Shown here piece by piece: positions 3,266 to 63,088 of a stretch of 64,000 nt of DNA. A program made the position numbers and the translations under genes. The stretch spans positions 1-64,000 of the forward strand of contig NZ_JAKLLH010000001.1 in NCBI RefSeq assembly GCF_023150235.1, written 5' to 3'. Within the stretch, counting starts at the first letter, position 1. The number at the start of each line of letters is the position of its first letter. This stretch comes from Azonexus sp. (GTDB lineage Bacteria > Pseudomonadota > Gammaproteobacteria > Burkholderiales > Rhodocyclaceae). The notes under the pieces are model-generated. The model searched no databases. It was not told the DNA's origin and was given only the letters and a program-made list of their open reading frames with translations.

Positions 3266-3279
3266 CACGGTCGACCGTG
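3266..3279. repeat. ACGGTCGACCGT palindrome, short copy
   Basis: Perfect 14-bp inverted repeat CACGGTCGACCGTG centred at 3272/3273. It lies in the gap between the yacG stop and the rnpB promoter. The outer flanks (ttttttgccgg on the left, cgccgaaaaa on the right) are only roughly complementary, so this is one of the shorter members of the family described under findings. Confidence 0.8.
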
Positions 3280-6578: not shown

Positions 6579-6596
6579 TTCACGGTCGACCGTGAA
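6579..6596. repeat. ACGGTCGACCGT palindrome, 18 bp
   Basis: Perfect 18-bp inverted repeat TTCACGGTCGACCGTGAA centred at 6587/6588. It lies between the convergent ends of the methyltransferase (6377) and the gene ending at 6614, 17 bases from the latter's stop. Runs of T on the left (with GCC) and A on the right (followed by CGGC) extend the inverted pattern imperfectly. Confidence 0.85.
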
Positions 6597-8155: not shown

Positions 8156-10873
8156 TCAGCCCGTCAGCGGCTTGACCACGCGCTTGACCGCGGTGTCTTC
8201 CGGGTGTGGGTGGATGGTGAAGCCGAGGCTGGTCATCAGGCGGAACATCTTGGTGTTGGTCGACAGGACATCGCCGACGACGGCGCGATAACCCTTCATG
8301 CGGGCACAGTCGATCAAGGCCGTCATCAGCTTGCGGCCGACGCCACACTTCTGCCAGTCATCGCCAACTGCCAGCGCGAATTCGACCGACTCGCCGTCCG
8401 GGTTGAGAACGTAGCGGGCGACGCCGATCTGCAGTTCGCTCGGTTCGACATCGTCGATGTTGTCCTCGATTTCCTTGGGAATGGTGGCGACCAGTGCCAT
8501 TTCACGGTCGTAGTCGATCTGCGTGAAGCGGACCAGCATGGTCTGGGTCAGTTCGCGCAGGGTGTCCATGAAGCGGTAGTAGCGCGATTCGTCGGACATG
8601 TTCTTGACGAAATCCTGCTCCATCCCGGCGTCTTCGGGGCGGATCGGGCGGATGGTGACGGTCTTGCCGTCGTTCATCGTCCAGTCCTGGATCAGGTGCA
8701 CCGGGTAGGGGTAGATCGACATGTGCGCATAGCGGTCGCCCGAGGCCCCGGCGGTGTGATCGATGACGATGCGGGCATCGGCGGCGATGGCCCCGTTTTC
8801 ATCGACGATCAGCGGGTTGAGGTCGAGTTCCTGGATCCACGGCAGTTCGCAGACCATTTCCGAGATGCAGAGCAGGACTTCCTTGAGCGCTTCACGGTCG
8901 ACCGGCGGCATGTTGTGAAATTGGCCGAGGATTTTCGAGGCGCGCGTCGAGTCGATCAGGTCCTTGGCCAGGAACTTGTTCAGCGGCGGCAGCGCGACCG
9001 AGCGGTCGGAGAAGATTTCAACGTCGAAACCGCCGGCGCCGAAGGTGATGACCGGCCCGAAAACCGGGTCGCGGAAGACGCCGATCATCAGTTCGCGGCC
9101 GTTCGGGCGCGACAGGAAGGGCTCGATCGACACTCCGTTGATCTTGGCATCCGGGCGGCGCTTCTGCACGGTGTCGATAATGTCGTGGTAGGCGTTGCGT
9201 ACCGATGGTGCATTGGTGATGTTGAGACGGACGCCGCCAACGTCGGACTTGTGGGTCAGGTCCGGCGAATCGACCTTCATCGCTATCGGGAAGCCGATCT
9301 GTTCGGCGAGCAGCAGGGCCTCGGTCGCGGTGCGGGCGACCATGGTTTGCGCTACCGGCACCTTGAAGGCGCGCAGGATCGCCTTGGACTCCATTTCGGA
9401 GAGCACCTTGCGCCGTTCGGCGAGCAGGGCCTCGATCAGCATCTTGGCGCCCTCGGCTTCCGGGCGGTCGTACTGGCGGGTCGGTTCCGGTGCCTGCAGC
9501 AGCAGTTTCTGGTTGCGGTAATACTTGGAAATGTGGTGGAAGAGTTCGATTGCGGTTTCCGGCATGCGGAAGGCCGGGATGCCGTTGTCTTCGAGCAGCT
9601 TGCGCGCTTCGGCGACTTGTTCCTCGCCCATCCAGCAACAGATGATCGAACGATTGAGCTTGTCGGAAATTTCAAGAATGGCCTTGGCCACTTCCAGCGG
9701 CTGCGTCATCGCCTGCGGCGTCAGCATCACCAGGGTGCTGTCGACGTTGGGGTCTTGCGTCACCGCCAGAATCGTGTCGCGGTAGCGTTCCGGCGTCGCG
9801 TCGCCGGTAATGTCGATCGGGTTGCCGTGCGACCAAGTGTGGGGCAGTGCCTTGTTGAGCTTGACCGTGGTTTCGTCCGATAGCTGCGCCAGCGGAATCC
9901 CGAAGTCACCGGCGCGGTCGGCGGCCATCGCGCCCGGCCCGCCGCCGTTGGTGATGATCGCCAGGCGGTTGCCCTGCGGGCGGAACTTCGAGGCGAGCGC
10001 CTTGGCAGCGTAGAACAGCTGGCCGACGTTCTGCACGCGGACGACGCCGGCACGGCGTACGGCAGCGTCGAAAACGGTGTCGGAAACCGCGCTCATCCCC
10101 GAGTGGGCCAGCGCCGCCTGCGAGCCGGCCTCGTGGCGGCCGGCCTTGAGCAGGATGATCGGCTTGATGCGGGCGGCCGAACGCAGCGCGCTCATGAAGC
10201 GGCGGGCGTTGCGGATGCCTTCGACGTACATCAGGATGTAGTGGGTGCGGCTGTCGTAGATCAGGTAGTCGAGAATCTCGCCGAAATCGACGTCGGTGGT
10301 GACGCCGAGCGAAATCACCGAGGAGAAGCCGACCTGGTTGGCCTTGGCCCAGTCGAGCACCGCCGAGCACATTGCGCCGGACTGCGAGACCAGCGCCAGG
10401 TTGCCCGGATTGGCGTTGACCTTGGCGAAAGTCGCATTGAGGCCGAGGTCGGGGCGAATGATGCCGAGGCAGTTGGGACCGAGGATGCGGACGTTGTAGG
10501 AGCGGGCGATCTCGAGCACCTTGCGTTCGAGCGCGGCGCCGATGTGGCCGGATTCGGAGAAGCCGGCGCTGATGATGATCACGTTGCGGACGCTACTGCG
10601 GCCGCACTGTTCGATGATCTGCGGCACGGTCTGCGGGCGGGTGGCGATGATCGCCATCTCGACGCGAGCGCCGATCTCCTCGATCGACTTGTAGGCCTTC
10701 TCGCCGAGAATGGTTTCGTGCTTCGGGTTGATCGGGTAGAGCCGGCCTTTGTAGCCGGCGCTCTGGATGTTCCGGAAAATGACGTTGCCGACCGAATTCT
10801 CGCGTTCGGAGGCGCCGATCACGGCCACCGATTTCGGCTCGAAAAGTGCGGTGAGATAGTGCTGTTCCAACAT
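8156..10873 (-). CDS. patZ: Protein lysine acetyltransferase Pat (acyl-CoA synthetase-like plus GNAT)
   Basis: The 905-residue protein has the complete PatZ/YfiQ domain order. A CoA-binding Rossmann domain opens with SVAVIGASERENSVG, followed by the ligase-CoA flavodoxin-like region (NVIIISAGFSESG), an ATP-grasp region near residues 490-700 (AMKVDSPDLTHKSDVGGVRL), and a C-terminal GNAT domain with the acetyl-CoA loop CGVGRKLMTAL. Homologues acetylate lysines of acetyl-CoA synthetase and other central enzymes. The synthetase-like part is regulatory and usually inactive. It is transcribed alone, with a strong terminator downstream. No acs gene is nearby. Confidence 0.88.
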   Translation of the reverse strand: MLEQHYLTALFEPKSVAVIGASERENSVGNVIFRNIQSAGYKGRLYPINPKHETILGEKAYKSIEEIGARVEMAIIATRPQTVPQIIEQCGRSSVRNVIIISAGFSESGHIGAALERKVLEIARSYNVRILGPNCLGIIRPDLGLNATFAKVNANPGNLALVSQSGAMCSAVLDWAKANQVGFSSVISLGVTTDVDFGEILDYLIYDSRTHYILMYVEGIRNARRFMSALRSAARIKPIILLKAGRHEAGSQAALAHSGMSAVSDTVFDAAVRRAGVVRVQNVGQLFYAAKALASKFRPQGNRLAIITNGGGPGAMAADRAGDFGIPLAQLSDETTVKLNKALPHTWSHGNPIDITGDATPERYRDTILAVTQDPNVDSTLVMLTPQAMTQPLEVAKAILEISDKLNRSIICCWMGEEQVAEARKLLEDNGIPAFRMPETAIELFHHISKYYRNQKLLLQAPEPTRQYDRPEAEGAKMLIEALLAERRKVLSEMESKAILRAFKVPVAQTMVARTATEALLLAEQIGFPIAMKVDSPDLTHKSDVGGVRLNITNAPSVRNAYHDIIDTVQKRRPDAKINGVSIEPFLSRPNGRELMIGVFRDPVFGPVITFGAGGFDVEIFSDRSVALPPLNKFLAKDLIDSTRASKILGQFHNMPPVDREALKEVLLCISEMVCELPWIQELDLNPLIVDENGAIAADARIVIDHTAGASGDRYAHMSIYPYPVHLIQDWTMNDGKTVTIRPIRPEDAGMEQDFVKNMSDESRYYRFMDTLRELTQTMLVRFTQIDYDREMALVATIPKEIEDNIDDVEPSELQIGVARYVLNPDGESVEFALAVGDDWQKCGVGRKLMTALIDCARMKGYRAVVGDVLSTNTKMFRLMTSLGFTIHPHPEDTAVKRVVKPLTG

Positions 10874-12194: not shown

Positions 12195-12238
12195 ATTTCT
12201 GCCGTTTTTCACGGTCGACCGTGAAAAACGGCAGAAAT
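12195..12238. repeat. 44-bp perfect palindrome with GGTCGACC core
   Basis: Centred at 12216/12217, 22 bases on each side are exactly complementary. The arms read outward from GGTC as ACTTTTTGCCGTCTTTA in complement form. The mismatch begins only at 12194/12239. It lies 2 bases from the selU stop, between convergent genes. As RNA it would form a 20-bp stem with a UCGA loop from either strand, but no U-run follows. It is the longest copy in the window. Confidence 0.95.
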
Positions 12239-13291: not shown

Positions 13292-13945
13292 CTATTTTAC
13301 CAGCGGCGCCAGGGCCGCCCAGACATGCTCCAGCAGTAAGCCCTGGGCGGCGGCAGCAGGATGCAACTGGTCGGCCTGGAAAAGGTCGGCGCGGGTGGCC
13401 AGCGGTTCGAGCAGGAAGGGGAGCAGCGCCACCTTGCGCGAGCGCGCCAGATCGGCGAAAACCCGGGCAAATTGGTCGGCGTAGGGGCCGTAGTTCGGCG
13501 GCAGGCGCATGCCGGCGAGAAGCACACGGGCGCCGCTGGCCCGTGCCGCGTCGATCATGCTTGCCAGGTTGTCGTGCAGCTGTGTCAGGGGCAGGCCGCG
13601 CAGGCCGTCGTTGGCGCCCAGGGCTATCAGGACGAGCGCCGGTTTTTCGCGCGCCAGCGCCGCTCCCAGGCGGCTTTTGCCGCCGGCACTGGTCTCCCCG
13701 GAAATCGAGAGATTGACGACGTTATAATCGCTGCCGCGCTCGCGCAGCCGTTGTTGCAGCAGGGCTGGCCAGCTTGCCTCCGGGCGCAGGCCGTAGCCCG
13801 CCGACAGCGAATCGCCGAGCAGCAGCAGGGTCTTGCTTGCCGCATTGACGGTCAACGGTGCAAACAGGGCAAAAACGATGGCGGCGAGCAGGGCCGTTCG
13901 GGTGAGGCGTGGATCGCGGCTGGGCAGGAAAGGAAGAATGAACAT
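13292..13945 (-). CDS. tesA: Arylesterase/lysophospholipase, TesA-like (SGNH hydrolase)
   Basis: The 217-residue protein has a signal peptide (LTRTALLAAIVFALFAPLTVNA), then the SGNH blocks: LLLLGDSLSAGYGL (nucleophile serine), VNLSISGETSAGG, VLIALGANDGL, and DQLHPAAAAQ with the catalytic Asp/His. The enzyme acts in the periplasm on acyl esters or thioesters. It is arranged divergently from ybbA, the same pairing seen in many proteobacteria. The ATG chosen (13943-13945) overlaps the ybbA ATG in a CATG. selU follows immediately downstream. Confidence 0.9.
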   Translation of the reverse strand: MFILPFLPSRDPRLTRTALLAAIVFALFAPLTVNAASKTLLLLGDSLSAGYGLRPEASWPALLQQRLRERGSDYNVVNLSISGETSAGGKSRLGAALAREKPALVLIALGANDGLRGLPLTQLHDNLASMIDAARASGARVLLAGMRLPPNYGPYADQFARVFADLARSRKVALLPFLLEPLATRADLFQADQLHPAAAAQGLLLEHVWAALAPLVK

Positions 13946-18930: not shown

Positions 18931-20097
18931 ATGATCCGCCGCCTTCGCCTTGTTGCCTTCTTGCCGCTGTTCCTCTTCGCCGTACCGGCTGCCGCCGAGG
19001 AGGTCGTTGTCGAGGGGAGTGCCGTGATTCGCAACGGCGATCTCGGCGAAGCCCGCGAACAGGCGACGCGGCGGGCCATGGCGCGCGCGGCGGAGTTCCG
19101 GCAGGCGCGGGTCAGCTCGCAGGCACTGGTGCAGGCTGGCGTGGCCACCGAGACGGTCCAGGTCAGTGCCACGGCCTGTACCGGCCGGGTCGATGTGGTC
19201 GATGAAAAAGTCCTGGCCGATGAGTTGACCGTGATTTTGCGCGTCGCCCTGCCGGAAAATGGCGAGTGCCGCCAGCAATGCACCACGGCCTACGTCAATC
19301 GCATGGTGGTGACGGCCTTCGCCCTGGAATATCCGGAGCAGAAATTGCCGGGTGAGCAGTTGCGGATCAGTGCCGTGACGGCGGTCGAACTGGCGAAAAA
19401 ACTGGTTCGGCGCGGGCGCTTGCTGGCTGAGTACGAAGCGAGCGCCTATCCCTATGTCTCGCCCTCGCGTGCGCCCGTCCTGCGCACGGCCCCGGACGAT
19501 GCCGAGTCGCCGCTGGCCGGCTTGGCCCGGCGTTTTCGCGGGCAGTACATTCTTTCCGGGGTCTATCGCGACCTCGGCGTTTCCGGCTCGATATTCACCG
19601 CCGATCGTCGCCGGACCATACAGATCGAGGCCTTCCTCCACGACGGCGCCAATGGCGAGGTTCTTGCCCGGCGCAGCTTTACCCGCGAGGTTCGCGGCGA
19701 TCTCGAGCTGACTTCGCGTCACAGCGTCGGTTCGGCCGCTTTTTACGGTACCGATTTCGGTGTGGCCTGGGGGGGCGCACTCGATGCCATTGCCGCCTGG
19801 ACGGAGGAGCATGTTGCCTGCCTGCCCTTTATCGCCCGAGTTCTGAAAGTGTCTGGCGACAAGCTGCAGGTGGATGCGGGATCGGAGTCCGGTCTTTCGG
19901 TCGGCGATACCCTGAGTCTGCATAACTGGCGCGATCCCCCGGTCTGGGGCGTGACCGGCACGCCCCTGGGGCGAGAAAAGTCGACCCGTACCCAGGCGGT
20001 GGTGCGTACCGTCTATCCAAAATTCTCCATCCTGGAGATGCAGACGCCGCCGGCCAACTTGCAGGTGCGCCCCGGCGACGTGCTGTACGCGCAATAG
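18931..20097 (+). CDS. flgT: Flagellar assembly protein T (FlgT-like)
   Basis: The 388-residue protein has a signal peptide (LVAFLPLFLFAVPAAA) and then an N-terminal domain (VVEGSAVIRNGDLGEAREQAT) followed by a TolB-like middle domain and a C-terminal SH3-like segment (ARVLKVSGDKLQVDAGSESGLSVGDTL). This order matches Vibrio FlgT, a periplasmic component of the H-ring that stabilises the basal body. I chose the ATG at 18931, which starts the signal peptide; an in-frame ATG at 18901 would add ten residues. It lies 47 bases after the FlgP-like gene, presumably in one operon. Confidence 0.8.
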   Translation: MIRRLRLVAFLPLFLFAVPAAAEEVVVEGSAVIRNGDLGEAREQATRRAMARAAEFRQARVSSQALVQAGVATETVQVSATACTGRVDVVDEKVLADELTVILRVALPENGECRQQCTTAYVNRMVVTAFALEYPEQKLPGEQLRISAVTAVELAKKLVRRGRLLAEYEASAYPYVSPSRAPVLRTAPDDAESPLAGLARRFRGQYILSGVYRDLGVSGSIFTADRRRTIQIEAFLHDGANGEVLARRSFTREVRGDLELTSRHSVGSAAFYGTDFGVAWGGALDAIAAWTEEHVACLPFIARVLKVSGDKLQVDAGSESGLSVGDTLSLHNWRDPPVWGVTGTPLGREKSTRTQAVVRTVYPKFSILEMQTPPANLQVRPGDVLYAQ

Positions 20098-20119: not shown

Positions 20120-21370
20120 TCAGGATGCTCTGTCCGGGCGTTCGCCACCGGCCAGTTTCTGCACGATCAGGCTGCCGATCATGTCGCCCTCGACATTGAC
20201 CATGGTCCGCGTGGTGTCGAGGAGGCGGTCGATCGGTAGCAGAATGGCGATTGCTTCGGTCGGCAGGCCGACCGATTCCAGCACCAGCACCATCGACAGC
20301 ATGCCAACGCTGGGAATTCCCGGCGCACCGATGGCGCCGAGCATGGCCACGGCGAAGACGATGGCCTGGCTGGCAAGATCGAGCTCGATCCCGGCCAGGC
20401 GGGCGATGAAAAGTGCGGCGGCGGCCTCGTAAAGCGCCGTGCCGTCCATGTTCATCGTTGCTCCGAGCGGGACCACGAAACCGGCGATGTCCTTGTGCAC
20501 ATGCAGGTGTTGCTCGGTGCAACGCAGCGTGATCGGCAGCGTCGCGGCGCTCGACGAGGTGACGAAGGCGGTGAGCAGGGCTTCGCGCGCGCCCTTGAAG
20601 AATGTCAGCGGCGAGATGCGGGTGCACAGCCAGAGCAGCGCCGGCAGCACGATCAGACCGTGGAAGAGGGTGGTGCCGGTGACCACCGCAATGAAGTGAC
20701 CGAGACCGACCAAGAGCGCACCCTGCTGGGTGGCGACCAGTTGCAGCAGCAGCGCGGCGAGGCCGAGCGGGGCCAGGCGCATGATCCAGCCGACGACCAG
20801 CAGGCACAGGTCCTGTAGCTCGTCGATCAGCTGCCGCAGCAGTTTGAAGCGTTCGCTGCCGACCACCAGCGCAATCCCGAGGAACAGCCCGATGATCGCG
20901 ACGGCGAGGATGTCGCCCTGGGCCAGCGCCTTGAACGGGTTCTGGAACAGCCCGCGCATGAACTGTGCGAGGTAGTCCGGCAGCGGCATCTGGCGCGCCT
21001 GGTAATGCGCCGTGGCGTCGGCGAACATGGCCAGTGGCAGGCCTTCGCCGGGGCGGAACAGGTGGGCGGCGGAGAAGCCGAGCAAAATCGCCAGCGCCAT
21101 CGTCGCGAAGAAGAAAATCGGCGTCGTGGTCCACACCCGGTGCATCTTGTGGTGCGCACGCAGATTGGCGACGCCGCCGGCAATCGAGGCGAAGATCAGC
21201 GGCACCAGCACCATGCGCAGTAGATCGAGAAACAGGTTGCCGAGCATTTTTGCCGCATACAGCGTGTTGACCGTGAGCGGCTCGCCAGGCCGGTCGGCCA
21301 GCCAGCTGCCGCCGGCGAGGCCGAGCAGGCAGCCGAGGAAAATGCGCGAATTGAGCGAAGCGAAGGGCAT
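20120..21370 (-). CDS. Dicarboxylate/amino acid:cation symporter (DAACS/SDF family)
   Basis: The 416-residue membrane protein has about eight transmembrane helices plus two re-entrant loops. The hairpin-1 serine-rich motif TAFVTSSSAATLPITLRC and the sodium-site motif VPLGATMNMDGTALYEAAAALF identify the GltP/DctA family, which couples uptake of glutamate, aspartate or C4-dicarboxylates to sodium or protons. MPFASLNSRIFLG is taken as the start; longer readings lack family similarity. The gene converges on flgT (22 bases apart). Confidence 0.92.
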   Translation of the reverse strand: MPFASLNSRIFLGCLLGLAGGSWLADRPGEPLTVNTLYAAKMLGNLFLDLLRMVLVPLIFASIAGGVANLRAHHKMHRVWTTTPIFFFATMALAILLGFSAAHLFRPGEGLPLAMFADATAHYQARQMPLPDYLAQFMRGLFQNPFKALAQGDILAVAIIGLFLGIALVVGSERFKLLRQLIDELQDLCLLVVGWIMRLAPLGLAALLLQLVATQQGALLVGLGHFIAVVTGTTLFHGLIVLPALLWLCTRISPLTFFKGAREALLTAFVTSSSAATLPITLRCTEQHLHVHKDIAGFVVPLGATMNMDGTALYEAAAALFIARLAGIELDLASQAIVFAVAMLGAIGAPGIPSVGMLSMVLVLESVGLPTEAIAILLPIDRLLDTTRTMVNVEGDMIGSLIVQKLAGGERPDRAS

Positions 21371-22770: not shown

Positions 22771-22800
22771 CCGGTATTCATGGTCGACCGTGAATACCGG
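22771..22800. repeat. 30-bp palindrome with GGTCGACC core, one mismatch
   Basis: CCGGTATTCATGGTC faces GACCGTGAATACCGG. All pairs match except 22781/22790. It lies between the convergent ankyrin gene and rlmJ, 6 bases from the rlmJ stop. Arm sequence differs from other copies, yet pairs with itself. Confidence 0.9.
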
Positions 22801-24998: not shown

Positions 24999-27194
24999 AT
25001 GCCAGCCGTGCGGGTGACAGCTTGGAGCGCAAGGCGGGTGGCCTTCGGGCTGCTCGCCGGGCTGCTGCTGGCGGCCTGCAGCCCGCCGTGGAACGATCCC
25101 TATCCGCCGGCGGACGGCGCCCGGCAGCTTGGCCGGCAGGTGCTGTACACCGCCTTCAGCGAGCGGCCCAAGCACCTCGACCCGGCGCAGTCCTATACCG
25201 AGGACGAGGCGACCTTCACCGGCCAGATCTACGAACCGCCGCTGCAATACCACTACCTCAAGCGGCCTTACCAGCTGATCCCGGCGACGCTGACCGAGGT
25301 GCCGCAGCCGCGCTTCCTCGACGCCGCCGGCCGCCGCCTGCCGGAGGATGCGCCTGCCGAGCAGATCGCCGAGAGCGTCTACGAACTGCAGCTGCGTCCC
25401 GGCATCCGTTACCAGCCGCATCCGGCCTTTGCCCGCGATAGCCACGGTCAACCGCTGTATCTGGGCAAAAATGCCGCTGCCGGGCGCCAGTCGCCGGCCG
25501 ATTTTCCGCAGCAGGACAGCCGCGAACTGGTTGCCGACGATTACATCTACCAGCTCAAGCGGCTGGCGCATCCGCGCCTGCACTCGCCAATCTACGGGAT
25601 GATGGCCGACAAGATCGTCGGCCTCAAGGCGCTCGGCGACGCATTGGCAGCGGCCAGTAAACAAGCGGGCAAACCGGCCACCGGCGACGCCTGGCTCGAC
25701 CTCGACGAGTTTCCGCTGACCGGTGTCGAGAAAGTTGACCGCTACACCTGGCGCGTCCGCATCCACGGCAAATATCCGCAGTTTCTCTACTGGCTGGCAA
25801 TGCCCTTCTTTGCGCCAGTGCCGCGCGAAGTCGACCGCTTCTACGCGCAGCCGGGGATGGCCGAAAAGAACCTCAGCCTCGACTGGTGGCCGGTCGGCAC
25901 CGGGCCGTTCATGCTCACCGAGAATGACCCCAATCGGCGCATGGTGCTCAGCCGCAACCCCAATTTCCACGGCGAGACCTATCCTTGCGAAGGCGAGGCC
26001 GGCGACCGTGCCGCCGGCCTGCTCGCCGATTGCGGCCAGCCCTTGCCGTTGCTCGACGCAGCGGTCTTCACCCGGGAAAAGGAGTCGATCCCGTACTGGA
26101 ACAAGTTCCTGCAGGGCTATTACGACGCTTCCGGGATTTCTTCCGACAGCTTCGACCAGGCGGTGCGCATCGGCATCGACGGTGACGTCGGCCTCAGCGA
26201 CGAGATGGCCAGCAAGGGCATCCGCCTGCTGACCTCGGTCAAGGCCTCGACCTTCTACATGGGTTTCAACCTGCTCGACCCGGTGGTCGGCGGGCTCGCC
26301 GAGACGCAAGCCGAGCTGCGCCAGGCGGTGGCGATTGCAATCGACCAGGAAGAGTTCATCTCGATCTTCGCCAACGGTCGCGGCATTCCGGCGCAAGGGC
26401 CGTTGCCGCCGGGGATCTTCGGCTTTGACGACGGCGAGGCCGGGATCAACCCCTACGTCTACGACTGGGTTGACGGCAAACCCCGGCGCAAGCCGGTCGA
26501 GGCCGCCAAGCGGCTGCTCGCCGAGGCCGGTTACCCGAACGGACGTCACGCCAAAAGCGGCGAGCCGCTGGTGCTTTACCTCGACACCACCGGCGGCGGC
26601 GCCGGCGAAAAGTCGCGGCTCGACTGGCTGGTGCGCCAGTTGCAGAAGATCGACGTGCAGCTGGTGGTCCGCCCGACCGACTTCAACCGGTTCCAGGACA
26701 AGCTGAAGAAGGGCAACGTCCAGCTTTACTACCTGGGCTGGAACGCCGATTACCCGGACCCGGAAAACTTCTTCTTCCTGCTCGACGGCAAGGAGAGCAA
26801 GGTCAGCGCGGGCGGCGAGAACACCGCCAACTACGCCAGCCCCGAGTTCGACCGGCTGTTCGCGCGGATGAAGCACATGGACAACAGCCCGGAACGGCTG
26901 GCGATCATCCGCCGCATGAACCGGCAGTTGCAGCACGATGCGCCCTGGGTCTTCGGCTTCCACCCCAAGAGCTACACCTTGGGCCACCGCTGGCTGAAGA
27001 ACCGCAAACCCAGCGATGTCGGCAACAACATCCTCAAATATCAGCGGATCGACGTGGTCGACCGTGAACAGGCGCGGCGCGACTGGAACCAGCCCGTGCT
27101 CTGGCCGTTGCTGGCCGGCTTTGCCCTGTTACTGGCGGCCATCGTTCCGGCCTGGCTCGGCTACCGCCGGCGCGAACGCCGGGCCGCCCGCTGA
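24999..27194 (+). CDS. Family 5 extracellular solute-binding lipoprotein with C-terminal membrane anchor
   Basis: The 731-residue protein has a lipoprotein signal (FGLLAGLLLAACSPPW, acyl Cys about residue 27) and then an OppA/DppA-type binding domain (HLDPAQSYTEDEATFTGQIY, WWPVGTGPFMLTENDPNRRM, DPENFFFLLDGKES). Unusually, it ends in a hydrophobic helix LLAGFALLLAAIVPAWLG followed by a basic cluster RRRERRAAR, so it may be anchored in the inner membrane at both ends. It is longer than typical binding proteins (about 530) and no permease or ATPase gene lies nearby. It overlaps the next methyltransferase at TGATG. Confidence 0.82.
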   Translation: MPAVRVTAWSARRVAFGLLAGLLLAACSPPWNDPYPPADGARQLGRQVLYTAFSERPKHLDPAQSYTEDEATFTGQIYEPPLQYHYLKRPYQLIPATLTEVPQPRFLDAAGRRLPEDAPAEQIAESVYELQLRPGIRYQPHPAFARDSHGQPLYLGKNAAAGRQSPADFPQQDSRELVADDYIYQLKRLAHPRLHSPIYGMMADKIVGLKALGDALAAASKQAGKPATGDAWLDLDEFPLTGVEKVDRYTWRVRIHGKYPQFLYWLAMPFFAPVPREVDRFYAQPGMAEKNLSLDWWPVGTGPFMLTENDPNRRMVLSRNPNFHGETYPCEGEAGDRAAGLLADCGQPLPLLDAAVFTREKESIPYWNKFLQGYYDASGISSDSFDQAVRIGIDGDVGLSDEMASKGIRLLTSVKASTFYMGFNLLDPVVGGLAETQAELRQAVAIAIDQEEFISIFANGRGIPAQGPLPPGIFGFDDGEAGINPYVYDWVDGKPRRKPVEAAKRLLAEAGYPNGRHAKSGEPLVLYLDTTGGGAGEKSRLDWLVRQLQKIDVQLVVRPTDFNRFQDKLKKGNVQLYYLGWNADYPDPENFFFLLDGKESKVSAGGENTANYASPEFDRLFARMKHMDNSPERLAIIRRMNRQLQHDAPWVFGFHPKSYTLGHRWLKNRKPSDVGNNILKYQRIDVVDREQARRDWNQPVLWPLLAGFALLLAAIVPAWLGYRRRERRAAR

Positions 27195-28444: not shown

Positions 28445-28460
28445 TTACGGTCGACCGTAA
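28445..28460. repeat. ACGGTCGACCGT palindrome, 16 bp
   Basis: Perfect TTACGGTCGACCGTAA centred at 28452/28453, with looser pairing farther out (CGG..., ...TCGGC). It lies 18 bases after the methyltransferase stop, between convergent genes. Confidence 0.8.
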
Positions 28461-29077: not shown

Positions 29078-29109
29078 GCGAAAAACCACGGTCGACCGTG
29101 GTTTTTCGC
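29078..29109. repeat. 32-bp perfect palindrome with GGTCGACC core
   Basis: Centred at 29093/29094, sixteen bases on each side pair perfectly; left arm GCGAAAAACCACGGTC, right arm GACCGTGGTTTTTCGC. Unlike most copies, it lies in a longer non-coding stretch, 126 bases after repeat copy A. Confidence 0.9.
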
Positions 29110-33392: not shown

Positions 33393-34343
33393 TCACACCA
33401 AGCCAAGGCTTTCCTCGACTCCGAGATGTACGTTCATGGCCTGCACCGCGGCACCGGAAGCCCCCTTGCCGAGATTGTCGAGGCGGGCGATCAGCAGCAT
33501 GCGCTCGGCGTTGCCGAAGACGGCGATATCGACCCGGTTGCTGTCGTTGTTGGCTTCCACGTCGTAGAAGCCGCCGTCGGTGCTGGCTTCGAGGTCGAAG
33601 GGCAGAACATGGATGAAGCGCTCGCCGGCGTAATGGTCGGCAATGATCTGGCGCACCTCTTCCGGGCCGGCGGCGCGGCTGAACTGCTGCGGCTGCAGGT
33701 AGGCGGTGACCGCCAGGCCCTTGTAGAAGGGGCCGACGATGGGCTGGAAGATCGGTGCCACGGTCAACCCGGTGTAGGCCTGCATTTCCGGCAGGTGCTT
33801 GTGTGCCAGCGCCAGCGCGTAGGGCCGTGGGGCTTTCAGGGCGGTCGCACTGCCGGCCGCGTTCTGGTAGTCGGCGATCATCGACTTGCCGCCACCGGAA
33901 TAGCCGGTGATCGAATTGGCCGCGATCTGGGTTGCCGCCGGCAGCAGGCCGGCCTGGACCAGCGGCCGCAGGGCGAGGATGAAGGCGCTGGCGTGGCAGC
34001 CGGGGTTGGCGATGCGCTTGCTGGCCTTGATCTTGGCGCGCTGGTCCTTGGCCAGTTCGGGCAGGCCGAAAGTCCAGGCCGGGTCGACCCGGTGCGCGGT
34101 CGAGGCATCGATGACGCAGGTTTTCGGATTGTCGACCAGACTCACCGATTCCTTGGCGGCGGCGTCCGGCAGGCAGAGGAAGGTGACGTCGGAAGCGTTG
34201 ATCAGGCGCTTGCGTTCGGCGAGATCCTTGCGCTTGTCGGAATCGATCTTGAGCAGTTCGATATCGTCGCGCTGCGCGAGGTATTCGTTGATCTGCAGGC
34301 CGGTCGTGCCTTCCTGGCCGTCGACAAAGACTTTATAGGTCAT
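33393..34343 (-). CDS. argC: N-acetyl-gamma-glutamyl-phosphate reductase (type 2)
   Basis: The 316-residue protein is the short ArgC type found in Pseudomonas and betaproteobacteria. It begins [18 protein letters not shown] (NADP-binding glycine motif) and contains the active-site block [17 protein letters not shown] with the catalytic cysteine. It reduces N-acetylglutamyl phosphate in arginine biosynthesis. The start is supported by [10 protein letters not shown]. The divergent ygiQ gene starts 152 bases away. No other arg genes are in the window. Confidence 0.95.
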
Positions 34344-34494: not shown

Positions 34495-36855
34495 ATGGAA
34501 TCGAATCAGTACATCACTACGCCGCAACTGCCGGCATCGGTCAAGCCCTTGTTCGGCTATCGCAAATTTTGGGCGCATCGCTTCGGCCCCGCACCTTTTC
34601 TGCCCATGTCCCGCGAGGAAATGCAGCAATTGGGCTGGGACTCCTGCGACATCATCCTCGTTACCGGCGACGCCTATATCGACCATCCCAGTTTTGGCAT
34701 GGCGCTGATCGGCCGTCTGCTCGAAGCCCAGGGCTTCCGCGTTGGCATCATCAGCCAGCCGGACTGGACTTCCGCGGTCGACTTCAGGAAATTGGGAAAA
34801 CCGAACCTGTTTTTCGGTGTGACCGCCGGCAACATGGATTCAATGGTCAATCGCTATACCTCGGACCGCAAGATCCGTTCCGACGATGCCTACACGCCGC
34901 ACGCCGAGGCCAACAAACGCCCGGACCGGACCTTGACCGTTTATGCCCAGCGCTGCCGCGAAGCCTTTCCCGGTTTGCCCGTCATTCTTGGCTCGATCGA
35001 GGCCAGTCTGCGCCGCATCGCGCATTACGACTACTGGTCGGACAAGGTCCGGCGTTCGGTATTGGTCGACTCCAAGGCCGATCTGCTGATTTTCGGCAAT
35101 GCCGAGCGGGCGGTGGTCGAACTGGCCCATCGCCTAGCCAAGGGCGAGAAAATCGGCGATATCCGCGACCTGCGCGGTACCGCCTTCATGGTCGCTCCCG
35201 GCTGGTTGCCCGGCGAGGACTGGGCCTTGGTCGATTCAACCGAGGTCGACACGCCGGGGCCGCTGGTCAGGCATGCCGACCCGTATGCGATGGACGAAAC
35301 TGGAGCGAGGAACCCGGGCCAGGAGGCCGGCAAGGGCGAACAGCCCATGCACTTCGTGGCCAAGTCCGCGCTGACGGACCCGCGAGCGAGGAGCGCGGCG
35401 CGGCGCGTCCAGCGGGCTCACACCGTCATCCGCCTGCCTTCCTACGAGCAGGTCAAGGACGATCCGGTTCTCTACGCGCATGCTTCGCGCACTTTCCACC
35501 TCGAATCCAACCCCGGCAATGCCCGGGCCTTGGTGCAGGGGCACGGCGAGGGTGCCGGCCGGCGCGATGTCTGGCTTAATCCGCCGCCCTTTCCACTGAC
35601 CACCGAAGAATTCGACCGCGTCTACGAAATGCCTTACGCCCGCCGCCCGCACCCCGGCTACGGCGAGGCCAAGATCCCGGCCTGGGAGATGATCCGTTTC
35701 TCGGTCAACATCATGCGCGGCTGCTTTGGCGGCTGCACCTTCTGTTCGATCACCGAACACGAGGGACGCATCATCCAGAGTCGCTCCGAGGATTCGGTGA
35801 TCCGCGAAATCGAGGACATGCGCGACAAGACGCCGGGTTTCACCGGCATCGTTTCCGATCTCGGCGGACCGACCGCCAACATGTACCACCTCAAGTGCAA
35901 GGACGCCAAGATCGAGTCCTCCTGCCGCCGTCTCTCCTGTGTCTACCCGGATATCTGCGAGAACATGAACACCGATCACTCCAAGCTGATCTCGCTCTAC
36001 CGGCGGGCGCGTTCGATCAAGGGAGTGAAGAAAATCCAGATCGGCTCCGGATTGCGCTACGACCTGGCCGTGCGCTCGCCCGACTACATCCGCGAACTGG
36101 TCACCCACCACGTCGGCGGCTATCTCAAGATTGCACCCGAGCACACCGAGGATGGTGTGCTGGCCAAGATGATGAAGCCCGGCATCGGCACCTACGATCG
36201 CTTCAAGCAGCTTTTCGAGCGTTTTTCGCGCGAGGCGGGCAAGGAACAGTACCTCATTCCCTACTTCATCGCCGCCCATCCCGGTACCACCGATGAAGAC
36301 ATGATGAATCTGGCGCTCTGGCTGAAGAGGAACAACTTCCGTCTCGATCAGGTACAAACCTTCCTGCCGACACCGATGGCGCTGGCCACGACGATGTACC
36401 ACAGCGAGAAAAATCCGCTCAAGAAACTGCAGCGCGAAGGTGCGGAGCATGTCGGGGCGGTGCGCAACGCCCGCCAGCGCAAGCTGCACAAGGCCTTCCT
36501 GCGTTATCACGACCCGGAAAACTGGCCGCTGTTGCGCGAGGCGCTGAAGGCGATGGGGCGAGCCGATCTGATCGGCAATGGCAAGAAGCAATTGATTCCC
36601 GCCTGGCAACCCGCCGGTACCGGTCTGAACAGCCATTCCGGGAGCCCGCGCACCACCGCCTGCGCGGCGCGTCGGCAGGCCCGGGCCGCACACGGTCAAC
36701 CGCCGGCAGCGGGCAAAAAGCCCGTTACCGGCCAGTCCGGGAATCAGTCCGGAAAGCAGGCAACGAATCCGGCCGCCAGGCGCCAAGCCGGTGCTGCTGC
36801 CGGCAAGCCGGTCGCTACCGCTCGTAACGCCAACGGTCGTAAAGGGCGCGCTTAG
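34495..36855 (+). CDS. ygiQ: YgiQ family radical SAM protein
   Basis: The 786-residue protein has the YgiQ N-terminal region ([35 protein letters not shown]) and the radical SAM cluster in [19 protein letters not shown], a CxxxCxxC. The fold is followed by a C-terminal extension. The last 110 residues are low-complexity, rich in Gly, Gln, Ala and Lys, and unlike the core. Family members carry an iron-sulfur cluster; the substrate is unknown. The 3' end overlaps the convergent hydrolase gene by 4 bases. Confidence 0.9.
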
Positions 36856-37517
36856 GCGGGGCCGCTGTTTCCGCCGCTGTTTCCGCCGGCGTTTCCGTCT
36901 CCCGGCCACGCCGCCTGCCGCAGCAGGGCCGATTCTCCCGCCGCCAGTTCGACGACGGTGCAGGGGGTTGGCAAATGGCGGGCGGCACGGGCATGGGCGG
37001 CGACGGTGCCTTCGTCGCCGGCAGCGTGCAGCAGCAGCAAAGGCTGCCGGAGGTGGCGCAGGGCGTCGCCGCCGGCACGGTCGATTTCTCCCGCGCAGGC
37101 GGCGATGGCAAGAACTTGCCGGTCGCGCTGGACGGCGGCGCGCAAGGCCGCCGGAGTCGTCGCACCGTAGGTGCAGAGCCGTAACGGTAGCAACTGCAGT
37201 TCGGGCTGGCGTAGCAGGTGGGCGAGGACCTGTAGCAGCCGTTCGGTGAGGCGAAAAACATTGCGCTCGGCATCCGGATAGCGGATTTCCTCTTCATTGA
37301 GCAGCGCGCAGTTGAGCAGCGCGTGTCCATGGGCAAGTAAAAAATCGCGATTTTCGTCGTCGACCGTGGCAAAGCCGGGGTGGACGAGGAGCAGCAGGTC
37401 GCGGGGGTTTTCCGGCATCGCCAGGCGGCCGTAAACCTGTTTCCCGAGGTCGATTTCCTGCCACCTGCTCACAGGTGCGGGGATATATGCAGGGTAAGAG
37501 GGCGAACCACTGTTCAA
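36852..37517 (-). CDS. Alpha/beta-hydrolase-like protein, probably degenerate
   Basis: The 221-residue protein has [28 protein letters not shown] and, later, [26 protein letters not shown], which fits the HG-type oxyanion segment and acid region of alpha/beta hydrolases, but no clear GxSxG nucleophile elbow is seen (IAACAGEID occupies that position). The last residues [14 protein letters not shown] come from a 12-base tandem repeat at about 36863-36890. The 5' end overlaps the antitoxin-like gene's stop (37514-37517), suggesting one operon. Confidence 0.55.
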
Positions 37518-40689: not shown

Positions 40690-43596
40690 ATGGGGATGGA
40701 TGCAAGGGCTCTGCCGGCCACGGCCGGTTTGCGCATACTGCTGCTGGAGTCCGATCGCAAGGACGGCGAGCGCTTGCTGCGCGTGTTGCAGGGGCGCGGC
40801 TACTGCCTGGAGTCGCGATTCGCCACCACGCAGGAGGAGCTGCTGGCGGCGCTGGCAGACGGGCCGTGGGCCATCGCGGTGTTGGCGGGTAATTTGCCGA
40901 CGGCCGATGTCGGCGATCTGCTGCGCTCGATGCGCGAGCGGGTACCCGAAATGCCGGTGGTTCTGGCCGTTGACCGTGATCAGTCGCAGTTGTCCGCGCG
41001 TCTCCTCGCCGGCGGCATCTGCGACTTCGTGCTGAAGAGCAATCCGGCCCGCCTGCTCGGTGTGGTCGAACGCGAATGCGGCCTGCCGCTGGCCTGTCGG
41101 CGCAGCGACCCGGTTGACTGCAGCGAAGCGCGTTTTCTCCAGTTGGCGCGCAATATCCCGGAATGCTACTGGCTGACCGATGTCGCCAGCGGTCAGGTGG
41201 CCTTTGTCAATCAGGCTTATGAACAGATCTGGGGGCATCGCGTCGAGGATCTCTATGCCGACCCGGAAGACGGCCTGCGCCACGTCCATCCCGAGGATAT
41301 TGCCGCCTTGCGCGCGGCCTTGGCCGCCAAGCCTCACGGCGGGCTCGATCACCGTTTCCGCATCCTGCGTCCCGGCGAGCAGTTGCGCTGGCTGCACGTG
41401 CGGACTTTCGAGGTGCATGACGAACGCGGGCAGTTGAACAGCGTCGGCGGTATCGCCACAGATATCACCGAAGTCTTTGCCGGTGCTCGCGACCAGATCC
41501 GGCTGGCGCATTTCGATTCGCTGACCGCGCTGCCCAACCAGCTGATGTTCTACGATCAAGCCCGGCAGCAGATCGCCCTGGCCAGGCGCAAGCAGTTTCC
41601 GCTGGCCGTGCTCCTGATCGACATCGATCAGTTTCGCGAACTGAACCAGACCCTGGGTTACTTTTCCGGCGACGAGCTGCTGCGCCAGATCGCCGGCCGG
41701 CTATCCGGGCTGCTGCGCGAATCCGATGTGCTCGGGCGCCTGGGCGGCGACGTTTTTGCCGCGCTGCTGCCCGATGTTTCGGAAATGGAACAGGCCGGAG
41801 TCGTCGCCCGCCGGGTGATCGAAACCCTGATCCAGCCGATCCGGGTCGAAGGGCGGGACGTTTTTGCCACGGCCAGCATCGGCATCGCCTTCTTTCCCGA
41901 CGACGGCAAGGATGCCCACGAACTGCTGACCAATGCCGAGGCGGCGATGCGCCAGGCCAAGAAGCTGGGGCGCAACAATTACCAAGCCTATGCCCCGACC
42001 ATGCACAGCGACGTGCGCAATCGTCTCTACCTCGAAACCGATCTGCGCAACGCCATCCTGAACCACGAATTCCTGCTCCATTACCAGCCCAAGGCCTGTT
42101 GTACCAGCGGGCGCATCGTCGGTGTCGAAGCCCTTGTCCGCTGGCAAAACCCTCGCCGTGGACTGGTGCCGCCGGACCAGTTCATCCCCTTGCTGGAAGA
42201 AACCGGCCTGATCTTGCCGGTTGGCCGCTGGGTACTGCGGGAGGCCTGTCGGCAGATGCAGGCCTGGTACGCCGAAGGGCTGGAATTGCCCAGCGTTTCG
42301 GTCAATTTGTCGGCCCGCCAGCTGGAGTCGGACACCCTGGTTCGCGACGTGGCGCAGGCCCTGGCCGACAGCGAACTCCCGGCCGGCTGCCTGGACCTGG
42401 AAATCACCGAGAGCATGCTGATGCAGAACGCCGATGCGGCGGTGTTGCTGCTTGGCGAGCTGAAGGCGATGGGGGTGACCCTGTCGCTCGACGATTTCGG
42501 CACCGGCTATTCGAGTCTGGCCTATCTCAAGCGCTTCCCGCTCGATACGGTCAAGGTCGACCGCTCCTTCGTCCAGGATATTGCCGCCGATGCCGACGAT
42601 GCCTCGATCACCCGGGCGGTGATTACCATGGCGCACCACCTCAAGTTGCAGGTGGTCGCCGAGGGGGTCGAGACCGCCGAGCAACTGGCCCTGCTGATCT
42701 CGCACCAGTGCGACGTGATCCAGGGGTATTTTTTCTCGCGTCCCTTGCCGGCGGGGGATATGGCGACGCTCCTGCGCGCCGGTAAGACGCTCCCCGCCCA
42801 CCTCCTGCGTTCGCCGACGCGCGAACCGCTCCTGCTTTTCGTCGCCGTCGACGATGCCGGCGAAATCCGGGATGCGTTGCGCCGAGACGGTCATCGAGTC
42901 GAGGCGCTCGCCGATTGCGCGGCTGCCTCGGCCTGGCTGGCGGTAAATCGTGCCGATGTCGTGATCTGCGGTGCCCCGCGTCCTGGTAACGATACCCTGG
43001 CGCTGCTCAACGAACTCTTTCTCGCTCAGGCCCAGTGCCATGGCTTCCTGCTGGCCGATGCCGCCTGTCTGAGCCTGCCGGCCTTGAACCAGCCGTCGCT
43101 GGCCGGACGGGTGCGCATCCTGCCGCTGCCGCTCGATCCTCTCGCCCTGCGCAGCTTGCTTGAGGAAACCCTGAGCCAGAGCCACCTGGCGGACGAATTC
43201 CGGCAATTGCAGCAGGAGGTCGAGCTGGCCGAGCGCCAGCTGTTGCGGGTCGAGCACGAACGGCGCGATCTCCTCGACGAGAACCGCCGGCTGCAATCGC
43301 AGTCGGGCCTTGCCGCCCGGGTGCTGGAGGAAGTGATCGGCGAATTGCCCTGGCCGATGATCGGTGTCGATCTCGAAGGCGTCGTGGTCATGGCCAACGA
43401 TAGGGCGCTGGCCTGCCTGGGTGAGTCGGGACTCTGTCTCGGCCTGCCGCTGGCCGACACCTTGCCGGCACTGGCGGCGCTGGTGGGCGATGCCACGGTC
43501 GACCTGGGCGAAAGGCAGTTTTTCGCCTGCTGGCGTTCGGTTCGCCTGGGGAGTGGCGGTGGTCGCCTGTTGGTGCTTGAGGAGTTGAAAGCGTGA
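40690..43596 (+). CDS. PAS-GGDEF-EAL c-di-GMP signalling protein with degenerate GGDEF
   Basis: The 968-residue cytosolic protein has this domain order: a degenerate receiver (about 15-125), PAS (150-255), GGDEF (275-430), EAL (440-690), a second degenerate receiver-like region (710-830), a coiled coil and a C-terminal PAS-like segment. The cyclase motif is GRLGGDVFAALL, with Val in place of the catalytic Glu, so synthesis is probably lost. The EAL signature (VGVEALVRW) and SLDDFGTGYSSLAYLKRF look intact, so phosphodiesterase activity is expected. Start chosen at ATG 40690. Confidence 0.88.
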   Translation: MGMDARALPATAGLRILLLESDRKDGERLLRVLQGRGYCLESRFATTQEELLAALADGPWAIAVLAGNLPTADVGDLLRSMRERVPEMPVVLAVDRDQSQLSARLLAGGICDFVLKSNPARLLGVVERECGLPLACRRSDPVDCSEARFLQLARNIPECYWLTDVASGQVAFVNQAYEQIWGHRVEDLYADPEDGLRHVHPEDIAALRAALAAKPHGGLDHRFRILRPGEQLRWLHVRTFEVHDERGQLNSVGGIATDITEVFAGARDQIRLAHFDSLTALPNQLMFYDQARQQIALARRKQFPLAVLLIDIDQFRELNQTLGYFSGDELLRQIAGRLSGLLRESDVLGRLGGDVFAALLPDVSEMEQAGVVARRVIETLIQPIRVEGRDVFATASIGIAFFPDDGKDAHELLTNAEAAMRQAKKLGRNNYQAYAPTMHSDVRNRLYLETDLRNAILNHEFLLHYQPKACCTSGRIVGVEALVRWQNPRRGLVPPDQFIPLLEETGLILPVGRWVLREACRQMQAWYAEGLELPSVSVNLSARQLESDTLVRDVAQALADSELPAGCLDLEITESMLMQNADAAVLLLGELKAMGVTLSLDDFGTGYSSLAYLKRFPLDTVKVDRSFVQDIAADADDASITRAVITMAHHLKLQVVAEGVETAEQLALLISHQCDVIQGYFFSRPLPAGDMATLLRAGKTLPAHLLRSPTREPLLLFVAVDDAGEIRDALRRDGHRVEALADCAAASAWLAVNRADVVICGAPRPGNDTLALLNELFLAQAQCHGFLLADAACLSLPALNQPSLAGRVRILPLPLDPLALRSLLEETLSQSHLADEFRQLQQEVELAERQLLRVEHERRDLLDENRRLQSQSGLAARVLEEVIGELPWPMIGVDLEGVVVMANDRALACLGESGLCLGLPLADTLPALAALVGDATVDLGERQFFACWRSVRLGSGGGRLLVLEELKA

Positions 43597-47373: not shown

Positions 47374-47419
47374 TTGCCCGCCGGCGGTGTCATTCACGGT
47401 CGACAGCGTTACCGGGCAA
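47374..47419. repeat. Degenerate palindrome with GGTCGAC core and unequal arms
   Basis: TTCACGGTCGAC is present, but the right half reads AGCGTTACC. Farther out TTGCCCG (47374-47380) faces CGGGCAA (47413-47419) at unequal distances of 21 and 11 bases from the centre, as if ten bases were lost on the right. It immediately precedes repeat copy B. Confidence 0.5.
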
Positions 47420-47421
47420 TT

Positions 47422-47589
47422 TTCATCGTAAGACTAACTCCGGTTTGAAACCCCCCGCCCTTCAGGGCGGTGGGAGCCGACCCCGGCCTGAAGGCCGGGG
47501 TTTCAGGCGACCGTTTTGGGAGGGGATGCAAACCCCTTCCAATACATGTTTGACCGACAGGCACGAATGCCTGTCGCTAATTTCTTGCT
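47422..47589. repeat. 168-bp hairpin-rich repeat, copy B
   Basis: Same ends (TTCATCGTAA ... TAATTTCTTGCT) and the same internal hairpins as copy A at 28785-28952. Differences include one base in the first stem (CGGTGGG) and changes near 47510-47540. It ends 7 bases from the stop of the HExxH protein gene at 47596. Confidence 0.85.
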
Positions 47590-48758: not shown

Positions 48759-50129
48759 TCAAAGCGCCTGCTTCAGTGCTGCCGTGATCGCCTGGCCGAG
48801 GTGGTCGATGCCGGCGTCGTCGATGATGTAGGGCGGCATCAGGTAAACGGTGTTGCCGATCGGACGCAGCAGGGCTTCGTGGTCGAGCGCGGCGCGATAG
48901 AAGCGGCGCGAGAAGTGCGGGTCGTCGCTGAGTACGTCGAAAGCGGCAATCATCCCGCGTTGGCGCAAATGGCGAACCCGTGGATGGGTCGCCAGCGGCG
49001 CCAGCATGGCGGCGATTTTTTGTGCTTTTTGCCGGTTGACCGTGAGAATGTCGTCTTCCCGAAAAATATCGAGCGTCGCCAGCGCCGCGCGGCAGGCCAG
49101 CGGGTTGCCGGTGTAGCTGTGCGAGTGGAGGAAGGCGCGGGCGACCGCATCGTCGAGGAAGGCGGCGTAGATTTCGTCGCGGCAGAGGACGATGGAGAGG
49201 GGCAGGTAGCCGCCGGAAATCCCCTTGGACAGGCAGAGCAGGTCGGGGCGGATCGGCCGGCCGTCGATTTCGGCCTGTTCGTGCGCGAAGAAAGTGCCGG
49301 TGCGGCCGCAGCCGACGGCGATTTCGTCGCAGATCAGGTGTACTTCGTGCTGGTCGCACAACTGGCGGGCCAGGCGCAGGTACTCCGGGTCGTACATCAC
49401 CATCCCGGCAGCACCCTGGACCAGCGGTTCGACGATCAGCGCCGCCGTCTGCGGGCCGTGCTCGGCCAGCCAGTCAGCGAGGGCGGCGGCGGCGCGGCGG
49501 GCGACGTCGGCCGGGGTTTCGCCGGGCTCGGCCAGGCGCTGGTCGGGCGCGGGGAGCACGTGCGCAGCACTGCGCACCAGCGGCGCGTAGGCATCCTTGA
49601 AAATTGCGACATCGGTGACCGCCAGCGCGCCGACGGTTTCGCCGTGGTAGCTGCCGGCCAGGCAGAGGAACTGGGACTTTTCCGGGCGGCCCCGGTTGCG
49701 CCAGTAGTGGAAGCTCATCTTCAGCGCAATCTCGGTCGCCGAGGCGCCGTCGGAGGCGTAGAAGGCGTGGCCAAGCGTGCCGCCGGTCAGCGCCGAGAGC
49801 CGTTCCGAGAGCTCGACCACCGGCTGGTGGGTGAAGCCGGCGAGCATGACGTGCTCAAGGCTGTCCAGCTGCGCCTTGAGCGCGGCGTTGATGCGCGGAT
49901 GGGCGTGGCCGAACAGGTTGGTCCACCACGAACTGATGCCGTCGAGAAAACGCCGGCCGTCGAAGTCATACAGCCAGACGCCTGCGCCGCGCGCTACCGG
50001 GACCAGCGGTAGGTGCTGCGGCTGTTGCGGGTCGGCGTGGTGCCGCATCTGGGTGCACGGATGCCAGACCGCGGCCTGGCTGCGGGCCAGCCACTCGGCG
50101 TTGGTGGATGACGGAAAGGGCATCGGCAC
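48759..50129 (-). CDS. bioA: Adenosylmethionine-8-amino-7-oxononanoate aminotransferase
   Basis: The 456-residue PLP enzyme has RFLDGISSWWTNLFGHAHPRIN, CLAGSYHGETVGALAVTD, LICDEIAVGCGRTGTFFAHE and the PLP lysine in LCLSKGISGGYLPLSIVL, all matching BioA. It converts KAPA to DAPA in biotin synthesis. It is immediately after the DUF2863 gene (one base apart). No other bio genes are in the window. A ttgccGGTTGACCGTGA string within the gene (49030-49050) resembles the palindrome core, but it encodes normal residues. Confidence 0.95.
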   Translation of the reverse strand: MPMPFPSSTNAEWLARSQAAVWHPCTQMRHHADPQQPQHLPLVPVARGAGVWLYDFDGRRFLDGISSWWTNLFGHAHPRINAALKAQLDSLEHVMLAGFTHQPVVELSERLSALTGGTLGHAFYASDGASATEIALKMSFHYWRNRGRPEKSQFLCLAGSYHGETVGALAVTDVAIFKDAYAPLVRSAAHVLPAPDQRLAEPGETPADVARRAAAALADWLAEHGPQTAALIVEPLVQGAAGMVMYDPEYLRLARQLCDQHEVHLICDEIAVGCGRTGTFFAHEQAEIDGRPIRPDLLCLSKGISGGYLPLSIVLCRDEIYAAFLDDAVARAFLHSHSYTGNPLACRAALATLDIFREDDILTVNRQKAQKIAAMLAPLATHPRVRHLRQRGMIAAFDVLSDDPHFSRRFYRAALDHEALLRPIGNTVYLMPPYIIDDAGIDHLGQAITAALKQAL

Positions 50130-60801: not shown

Positions 60802-60839
60802 TTTGCTGCCATTCACGGTCGACCGTGAATGGCAGCAAA
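60802..60839. repeat. 38-bp perfect palindrome with GGTCGACC core
   Basis: Centred at 60820/60821; TTTGCTGCCATTCACGGTC faces its exact complement. It lies 10 bases from the asparaginase stop at 60850 and 50 bases before the exonuclease start, so on the minus strand it lies between two genes transcribed in the same direction. Confidence 0.95.
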
Positions 60840-63046: not shown

Positions 63047-63088
63047 TTTTTGCCCTTTTCCACGGTCGACCGTGGAAAAGGGCAAAAA
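63047..63088. repeat. 42-bp perfect palindrome with GGTCGACC core
   Basis: Centred at 63067/63068; TTTTTGCCCTTTTCCACGG on the left faces its complement through the A run on the right. It is between the convergent peroxiredoxin and nuclease-like genes, 20 bases from the latter's stop. The right arm is followed by a partial duplication AAAGGGCAAAAACC. Confidence 0.95.

Follow-up and report, generated by a model that had tools for sequence, protein, structure and literature searches.

The long palindromes in this stretch of Azonexus DNA are the minority form of a one-sided motif, about 80% of whose copies lie inside genes. That motif is almost certainly a single DNA word at the level of the genus that varies in dialects and is recognised in double-stranded form rather than serving chiefly as an RNA hairpin, and we consider it quite probable that the word acts as a DNA-uptake signal of the Haemophilus type. 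The unit consists of the core CACGGTCRAC and two A/T tracts downstream of it, of which that at +14 to +18 is weak and that at +24 to +28 strong (numbered from 0 at the first core base), and the conservation of an A/T tract at a fixed distance from the core points to recognition of double-stranded DNA.

Palindromes and one-sided copies in the window

The window, by which we mean the whole 64-kb stretch that was analysed, lies at the start of contig 32 in a genome of 3.42 Mb (hereafter G000). The original prediction described about eight window copies of a shared 12-mer, and its description holds up well on inspection. Seven exact ACGGTCGACCGT 12-mers are present, at positions 3267, 6582, 12211, 28447, 29088, 60815 and 63062, and the eighth listed copy, at 22780, carries a single mismatch (ATGGTCGACCGT). 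The four perfect palindromes reported, 44, 42, 38 and 32 bp long, are found at 12195-12238, 63047-63088, 60802-60839 and 29078-29109. If up to two mismatches are allowed, the window holds 23 copies versus 3.12 expected, a number reached in none of 100 shuffles. A genome-wide count of the 12-mer, which had been proposed as a check, lies far above chance, with 236 occurrences versus one for a control pattern read backwards. Most window copies were also said to be close to gene stops, and with a simple gene caller the centres of six of the eight do lie within 45 nt of a called stop, the exceptions being the copies at 3267 (about 370 nt away) and 29088 (no called stop near).

The architecture of these strandless features is best seen in the 44-bp palindrome (12195..12238), where two opposed signals overlap at GTCGAC, each with its A/T tract, between convergent genes and with a fold of -31.8 kcal/mol. 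Because GTCGAC is self-complementary, two opposed copies of the unit can overlap by six bases, which yields a palindrome with tracts on both sides. The palindromic cores at 6582..6593, where the arms are imperfect, and at 28447..28458 likewise have an A/T tract on both sides and are flanked by convergent genes, as are the imperfect palindrome centred on ATGGTCGACCGT (22771..22800) and the 42-bp palindrome (63047..63088). The 32-bp palindrome (29078..29109) has tracts on both sides and stands away from called stops; the 38-bp palindrome (60802..60839) is at a gene end. At 3267..3278 the strong A/T tract belongs to the minus-strand copy, and the arms are incompletely complementary. Apart from A/T and G+C tracts, the palindromes share no common flanking sequence.

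The one-sided form was characterized in 839 kb of G000, comprising the window and 40 further loci. In this sample, CACGGTCGAC is the most over-represented 10-mer (245 copies versus 6.3 expected), and CACGGTCAAC occurs 92 times versus 1.8. The commonest single changes of CACGGTCGAC are G to A at position 7 (92 against 2) and C to T at position 0 (40 against 2), followed by A to G at position 1 (32 against 13), and the central GGTC seldom changes. Among 113 copies that are not followed by CG, the base is A or T in 95-96% at +26 and +27, and a recount with 124 copies gave 96-97% at the same two positions. Immediately 5' of the core there is only a weak T/A-rich stretch.

Copies of this kind are spread through the window, most of them inside genes. 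On the plus strand, a signal at 8893..8921 lies within a 905-aa gene (8156-10873, minus strand), and the variant GACGGTCAAC with its tract lies in a gene at 13847..13875. Further plus-strand copies with tracts are found in genes at 25443..25471, 33759..33787 and 36691..36719 (all CACGGTCAAC) and at 43494..43522 (CACGGTCGAC), together with an intergenic CACGGTCGAC copy at 47395..47423. On the minus strand, in-gene copies with tracts occur at 19205..19233, 21247..21275 and 49016..49044 (CACGGTCAAC) and at 37340..37368 and 59219..59247 (CACGGTCGAC), and one CACGGTCAAC copy with its tract is situated between called genes at 61512..61540.

Distribution, dialects and insertions into comEC

Among the loci listed, long perfect palindromes are few in 15 other copies from G000 and in its relatives, as if the feature were restricted to the window, a view that was overturned by the one-sided word. 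We searched for core and tract together with the pattern CGGTCRAC-N15-WWWW, using the same pattern written backwards as a control. G000 contains 1148 matches versus 23 for the control, or about one per 3 kb, a density that refers to the strict pattern and leaves degenerate copies outside the count. The 76 genomes of the genus fall into two groups, with 391-1785 matches in 40 of them (hereafter carriers) and 9-159 in the other 36. In a sample of 300 genomes from the order, the 297 from outside the genus reach a maximum of 37 on both strands (13 for the control of that genome), and most are near their controls.

Carriers and non-carriers are interleaved within the genus in a single-gene tree of 61 sequences (the window and 60 of 80 loci, partial and distant loci being omitted), several deep nodes of which are weakly supported. 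The 11 outgroup loci of this tree, which include Accumulibacter and Propionivibrio, contain no core with tract. Several matches each are present in named records of Dechloromonas denitrificans ATCC BAA-841, D. hortensis MA-1, Azonexus hydrophilus ZS02, A. fungiphilus DSM 23841 and Azonexus sp. R2A61, and none was found in 22.7 kb each of Dechloromonas agitata is5, D. hankyongensis XY25 and Dechloromonas sp. CZR5. The D. denitrificans locus (L050) contains 6 matches in 22.7 kb, and its control contains 0. The 905-aa protein encoded in the window at 8156-10873 has at most 90% identity to named Azonexus and Dechloromonas records. The core-and-tract matches listed for two signal-poor genomes look clustered (G062:C14:83430-90977 and 140043-140586; G060:C1:2596819-2648429), as if these segments had been acquired from a relative rich in the signal or were left over from a time when the genome had more of it.

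The word itself changes from species to species in its first bases. Samples of at least 80 kb from each of nine carriers and eight signal-poor genomes reveal at least four 5' dialects among the carriers. CACGGTCRAC is the dialect of G000 and G061, SACGGTCGAC that of G030 (where both CACGGTCGAC and GACGGTCGAC are used), and TGCGGTCRAC that of G029, G031, G087 and G098, while G063 uses AGCGGTCGAC and G064 a mix. The strong tract at +25 to +28 is present without selection in all nine, with A/T at 79-100% for +26 and 91-100% for +27 (13 to 124 copies per genome, those before CGT or CGC being omitted). The weaker tract at +14 to +18 is clear in most of the nine and most marked in G098, but it scarcely exceeds background in G029 and G031 and is missing from G064.

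In the eight signal-poor genomes the top 10-mers have 6-13 copies in 80 kb, a strength that overlaps that of some carriers, and a scan for fixed-distance A/T tracts was therefore added. This blind scan started from the most over-represented 8- and 9-mers in each genome and searched downstream for three neighbouring A/T-rich positions, with partial samples for G000 (three loci) and G030 (four loci). Its best word belongs to the signal family in all nine carriers, the lowest A/T fraction of the three positions being 0.80-1.00, and for words with a fixed-distance tract no signal-poor genome of the eight gave a value above 0.70. The clearest such word in G029 and G031 (loci L196-L199 and L208-L211) is TGCTGCGGT, which suggests a dialect extended by three bases 5' of TGCGGTC.

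Other repeats were met in the same samples. A word of about 28 bp that starts with TTTCTGAGCTGCCTATCC has 76 identical occurrences in the G030 sample (L136-L155) and is probably a CRISPR array, and a CRISPR-like direct repeat that includes GTTTCAATC is present in 54 copies over 22 kb of L054, where long stretches are N. Carriers and non-carriers alike among the sampled genus genomes (e.g. L156-L187) show a several-fold excess of CGAGCAGG (reverse CCTGCTCG), for which codon usage or a recombination signal are candidate causes.

A search for the ComEC family showed that in at least eight of the genus genomes the two ends of comEC lie about 20-65 kb apart. Split genes are seen at G067:C22:222975-271519, G085:C1:2720418-2763735 and G002:C33:109617-143311, and also in G060, G089, G005, G099 and G017. 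The breaks recur around TIGR00361 model positions 146, 163 and 590, and it looks as if mobile elements had inserted repeatedly into the gene for the DNA-uptake channel. In three carriers these inserts contain one core with tract in 125.6 kb, versus 14 in 54.4 kb of flanking DNA (binomial p 6e-7). The insert and the flanks in G017 have 0 and 0 copies; this genome is signal-poor and hence uninformative.

Placement, spacing and gene-end hairpins

Placement was followed in G000, the genome to which our analyses of codon phase, spacing and hairpins apply. Of 143 one-sided CACGGTCGAC copies, 114 are in genes, 27 are intergenic and two are at edges, so that the intergenic share is 19% versus 14% of random positions (binomial p 0.09). 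In-gene copies of CACGGTCRAC run in the direction of the gene 106 times and against it 110 times, and they have a strong codon-phase preference. No strand bias was detected on six contig stretches (p 0.28-1.00). Spacing was measured over 743 kb with 227 sites, after sites within 60 bp of each other had been merged, and its coefficient of variation is 0.805 versus 0.980 for a control with the same merging (0.998 unmerged); only one of 2000 control draws was as even.

The even spacing, which would suit a chromosome-packing site, and the conserved core with A/T tracts about a helical turn apart, which would suit a DNA-bending protein, also fit a different explanation, namely that the word is the site of a genus-restricted protein that organises the chromosome or regulates genes, with phased A/T tracts that reflect the bending of DNA by this protein. 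We regard this explanation as unlikely. Nearly half of the 76 genus genomes are without the word and the dialects of carriers differ, neither of which would be expected for a core chromosome protein. Promoter bias is lacking, some 80% of one-sided copies being located in genes. The near absence of the word from inserted DNA is a further point against this explanation, although recent acquisitions could lack any such site.

A second explanation confines the word to the RNA level, as a gene-end element that serves as a terminator, an insulator or an RNA stabiliser, and it draws on a genuine property of the palindromic subset. Among 56 palindromic 12-mers in the 839 kb, 39 are intergenic, and 22 of these lie between convergent genes. 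Exactly half (28/56) are within 60 nt of a called stop versus 3% of random positions, which bears out the original prediction that copies sit at gene ends. In 30 gene-end copies (within 80 nt), 290 of 450 arm positions past the core are paired versus 215.6 with arms swapped (0/2000 shuffles). This control was applied to the gene-end copies, and in-gene copies were compared by mean pairing: out of 15 positions, an average of 9.7 pair in gene-end copies, 6.4 in 17 in-gene copies and 6.0 in nine other intergenic copies. Mean folding energy is likewise stronger at gene ends (-22.9 versus -15.4 kcal/mol in genes). Arm pairing at gene ends thus appears to be selected as a secondary use, and the proposal of co-varying arms survives for the gene-end copies.

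Runs of at least four T are not enriched in the tails that read in from the gene (13/39 versus 11/34 in genes). The gene-end copies are therefore not typical U-run terminators, in agreement with the earlier view that these are not standard terminators, and this result counts against the RNA explanation itself. We set aside a hairpin as the primary role because most copies are one-sided, unoriented, in genes and without paired arms, and the fixed tract is a further contradiction; that the word is a gene-end RNA element and nothing else is very improbable. A 3'-end or insulator hairpin, as had been suggested for the palindromes, is consistent with the gene-end subset, given its co-varying arms and stronger folds, but not as the main function. 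Of the roles listed at that time, that of protein-binding sites comes closest to the reading preferred here.

High copy number and a palindromic form might also bring to mind a mobile repeat of the REP or MITE type that spreads by copying, a possibility to which we attach hardly any weight. The flanks of the copies are unrelated save for the A/T and G+C tracts, and copies within genes favour particular codon phases. Moreover, the one gene site examined in aligned relatives, at 8893-8921, has the full signal in four of 61 rows (the window and three of 60 loci) and lacks it in 57, and the aligned block is free of gaps throughout. The signal therefore seems to have arisen there by substitution, and this single site speaks for an origin by mutation and not by insertion. 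Chi sites are strand-biased and are not known to have an A/T tract of this kind, and although a Chi-like recombination signal would likewise be a short over-represented word, the presence of the tract, the head-to-head overlaps and the lack of strand preference on stretches of differing GC-skew sign make it just as implausible as a mobile repeat.

Competence genes and known uptake signals

The reading that we prefer, a DNA-uptake signal, calls attention to the competence genes. G000 encodes a full-length ComEC (860 aa), DprA and 15 prepilin-type matches. A pilin of 144 aa matches the Pfam family PF16732 (ComP_DUS) with 39.8 bits (cut-off 27.3; E 8.3e-10). At G000:C12:6677-9191, genes of the ComP_DUS, GspH, PilV-like and PilW types stand in a row as a minor-pilin cluster. 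A structural model of the 144-aa pilin (mean pLDDT 87.1) resembles type IV pilins of known structure, and ComP takes ranks 5 and 6 among them, but the similarity in fold is weak (no match with E <=0.001) and extends to pilins other than ComP. The pilin sequence was also compared with known structures, a comparison that was set aside, as it hit pilins mainly in the N-terminal region and ComP was not listed. The machinery is compatible with uptake, if no proof of it, and the pilin as candidate receptor is a guess from its family membership.

Among the 76 genus genomes, ComEC is found in 75, DprA in 75, GspH/FimT in 69 and ComP_DUS in 70. Since these genes occur in carriers and non-carriers, competence genes do not predict the signal. 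The signal-rich genome G018 gave no DprA match. By a hand tally of genomes that are at least 90% complete, an intact ComEC is found in 27 of 33 carriers versus 15 of 23 non-carriers, with no significant difference (Fisher p 0.21), and the positions of ComP-type and GspH-type genes, judged by eye, do not separate the two groups.

We can nonetheless envisage how such a word might be read and maintained. A pilus-borne or surface receptor, plausibly a minor pilin of the ComP family, would bind CACGGTCRAC on double-stranded DNA, and the A/T tracts, which follow at a distance of one to two helical turns, might help the DNA to bend or to enter. ComEC would then take the DNA in, and DprA and recombination would insert it. 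If tagged DNA were preferentially taken up and recombined, the resulting molecular drive would let good signals accumulate by substitution, in both orientations and with fairly even spacing. A drift in receptor preference would change the word and create dialects, and the loss of that preference would leave the words to decay. Where opposed signals overlap at GTCGAC a palindrome would form, and palindromes at gene ends could be recruited as RNA 3'-end hairpins, such that their arms come to co-vary.

We lean slightly towards the view that this is a third, independent uptake-signal system outside the Neisseriaceae and Pasteurellaceae, one with a self-overlapping core, 3' A/T tracts, a ComP-family reader, dialects, repeated losses, gene-end hairpins and comEC genes disrupted by signal-free elements. 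If true, a third case would mean that the trait has arisen on more than two occasions and does not depend on a life on animal mucosa; judged by their titles, the records for this group are largely environmental assemblies. A genus with 40 carriers among 76 genomes, with dialects and with neighbouring non-carriers, would offer a natural series for the start, shift and decay of specificity. Each species would provide a candidate receptor-word pair, and natural transformation is suggested for cultured strains such as Dechloromonas denitrificans. Our search of the literature on Rhodocyclaceae/Rhodocyclales, Dechloromonas, Azonexus and Azoarcus, whose coverage excluded most subscription journals, found no uptake or transformation data, as judged by titles and the opening of abstracts.

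In the portion of PMC12616744 available to us, such uptake specificity is described as known in Neisseriaceae and Pasteurellaceae alone. The uptake signal sequences (USS) of the latter and the DNA uptake sequences (DUS) of the former are portrayed in the accessible part of PMC1626085 as occurring about once per kb, with no orientation bias and with spacing somewhat more regular than random. The Pasteurellaceae USS comes in a Hin type (AAGTGCGGT) and an Apl type (ACAAGCGGT). As far as these sources extend (PMC1626085, PMC12616744), the Azonexus word resembles the USS in having a short core with two AT-rich stretches 3' of it and a high frequency, and also in its lack of orientation bias, its regular spacing and its clade dialects; the mutational origin of USS copies is matched at the one Azonexus site examined. 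Passages of PMC7811141 additionally link AT-tract shape to uptake in H. influenzae. The differences are also clear. The Azonexus core is a different one, with GTCRAC at its 3' side, its strong tract is the distal one, and, unlike the USS, it can overlap its own reverse complement and has several dialects in one genus. It belongs to a different bacterial group and has a lower density (about one per 3 kb), the figure of one per kb being typical of USS and DUS and no strict requirement, and its uptake role is that of a candidate. GCGGT is common to the TGCGGTC dialects and the two Pasteurellaceae words, perhaps by chance.

Similarities to the DUS/ComP system of Neisseriaceae are of another kind. 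DUS are reported, in the part of PMC3630211 at hand, to have dialects, to be missing as an obvious word from some species and to form inverted pairs linked to terminators, and the Azonexus word likewise has dialects between species, wordless species and inverted pairs at gene ends (PMC3630211). G000 also encodes a pilin of the PF16732 ComP_DUS family; ComP is the DUS receptor of Neisseriaceae. However, the DUS is a continuous word for which the same portion of PMC1626085 gives no flanking AT motifs, and its inverted pairs do not overlap according to the section of PMC3630211 that contrasts the arrangement in S. muelleri, whereas opposed Azonexus copies share six bases. Finally, the gene-end hairpins resemble intrinsic terminators in their location, especially between convergent genes, but their downstream U-run is unenriched, and a DNA signal explains why they share a central word.
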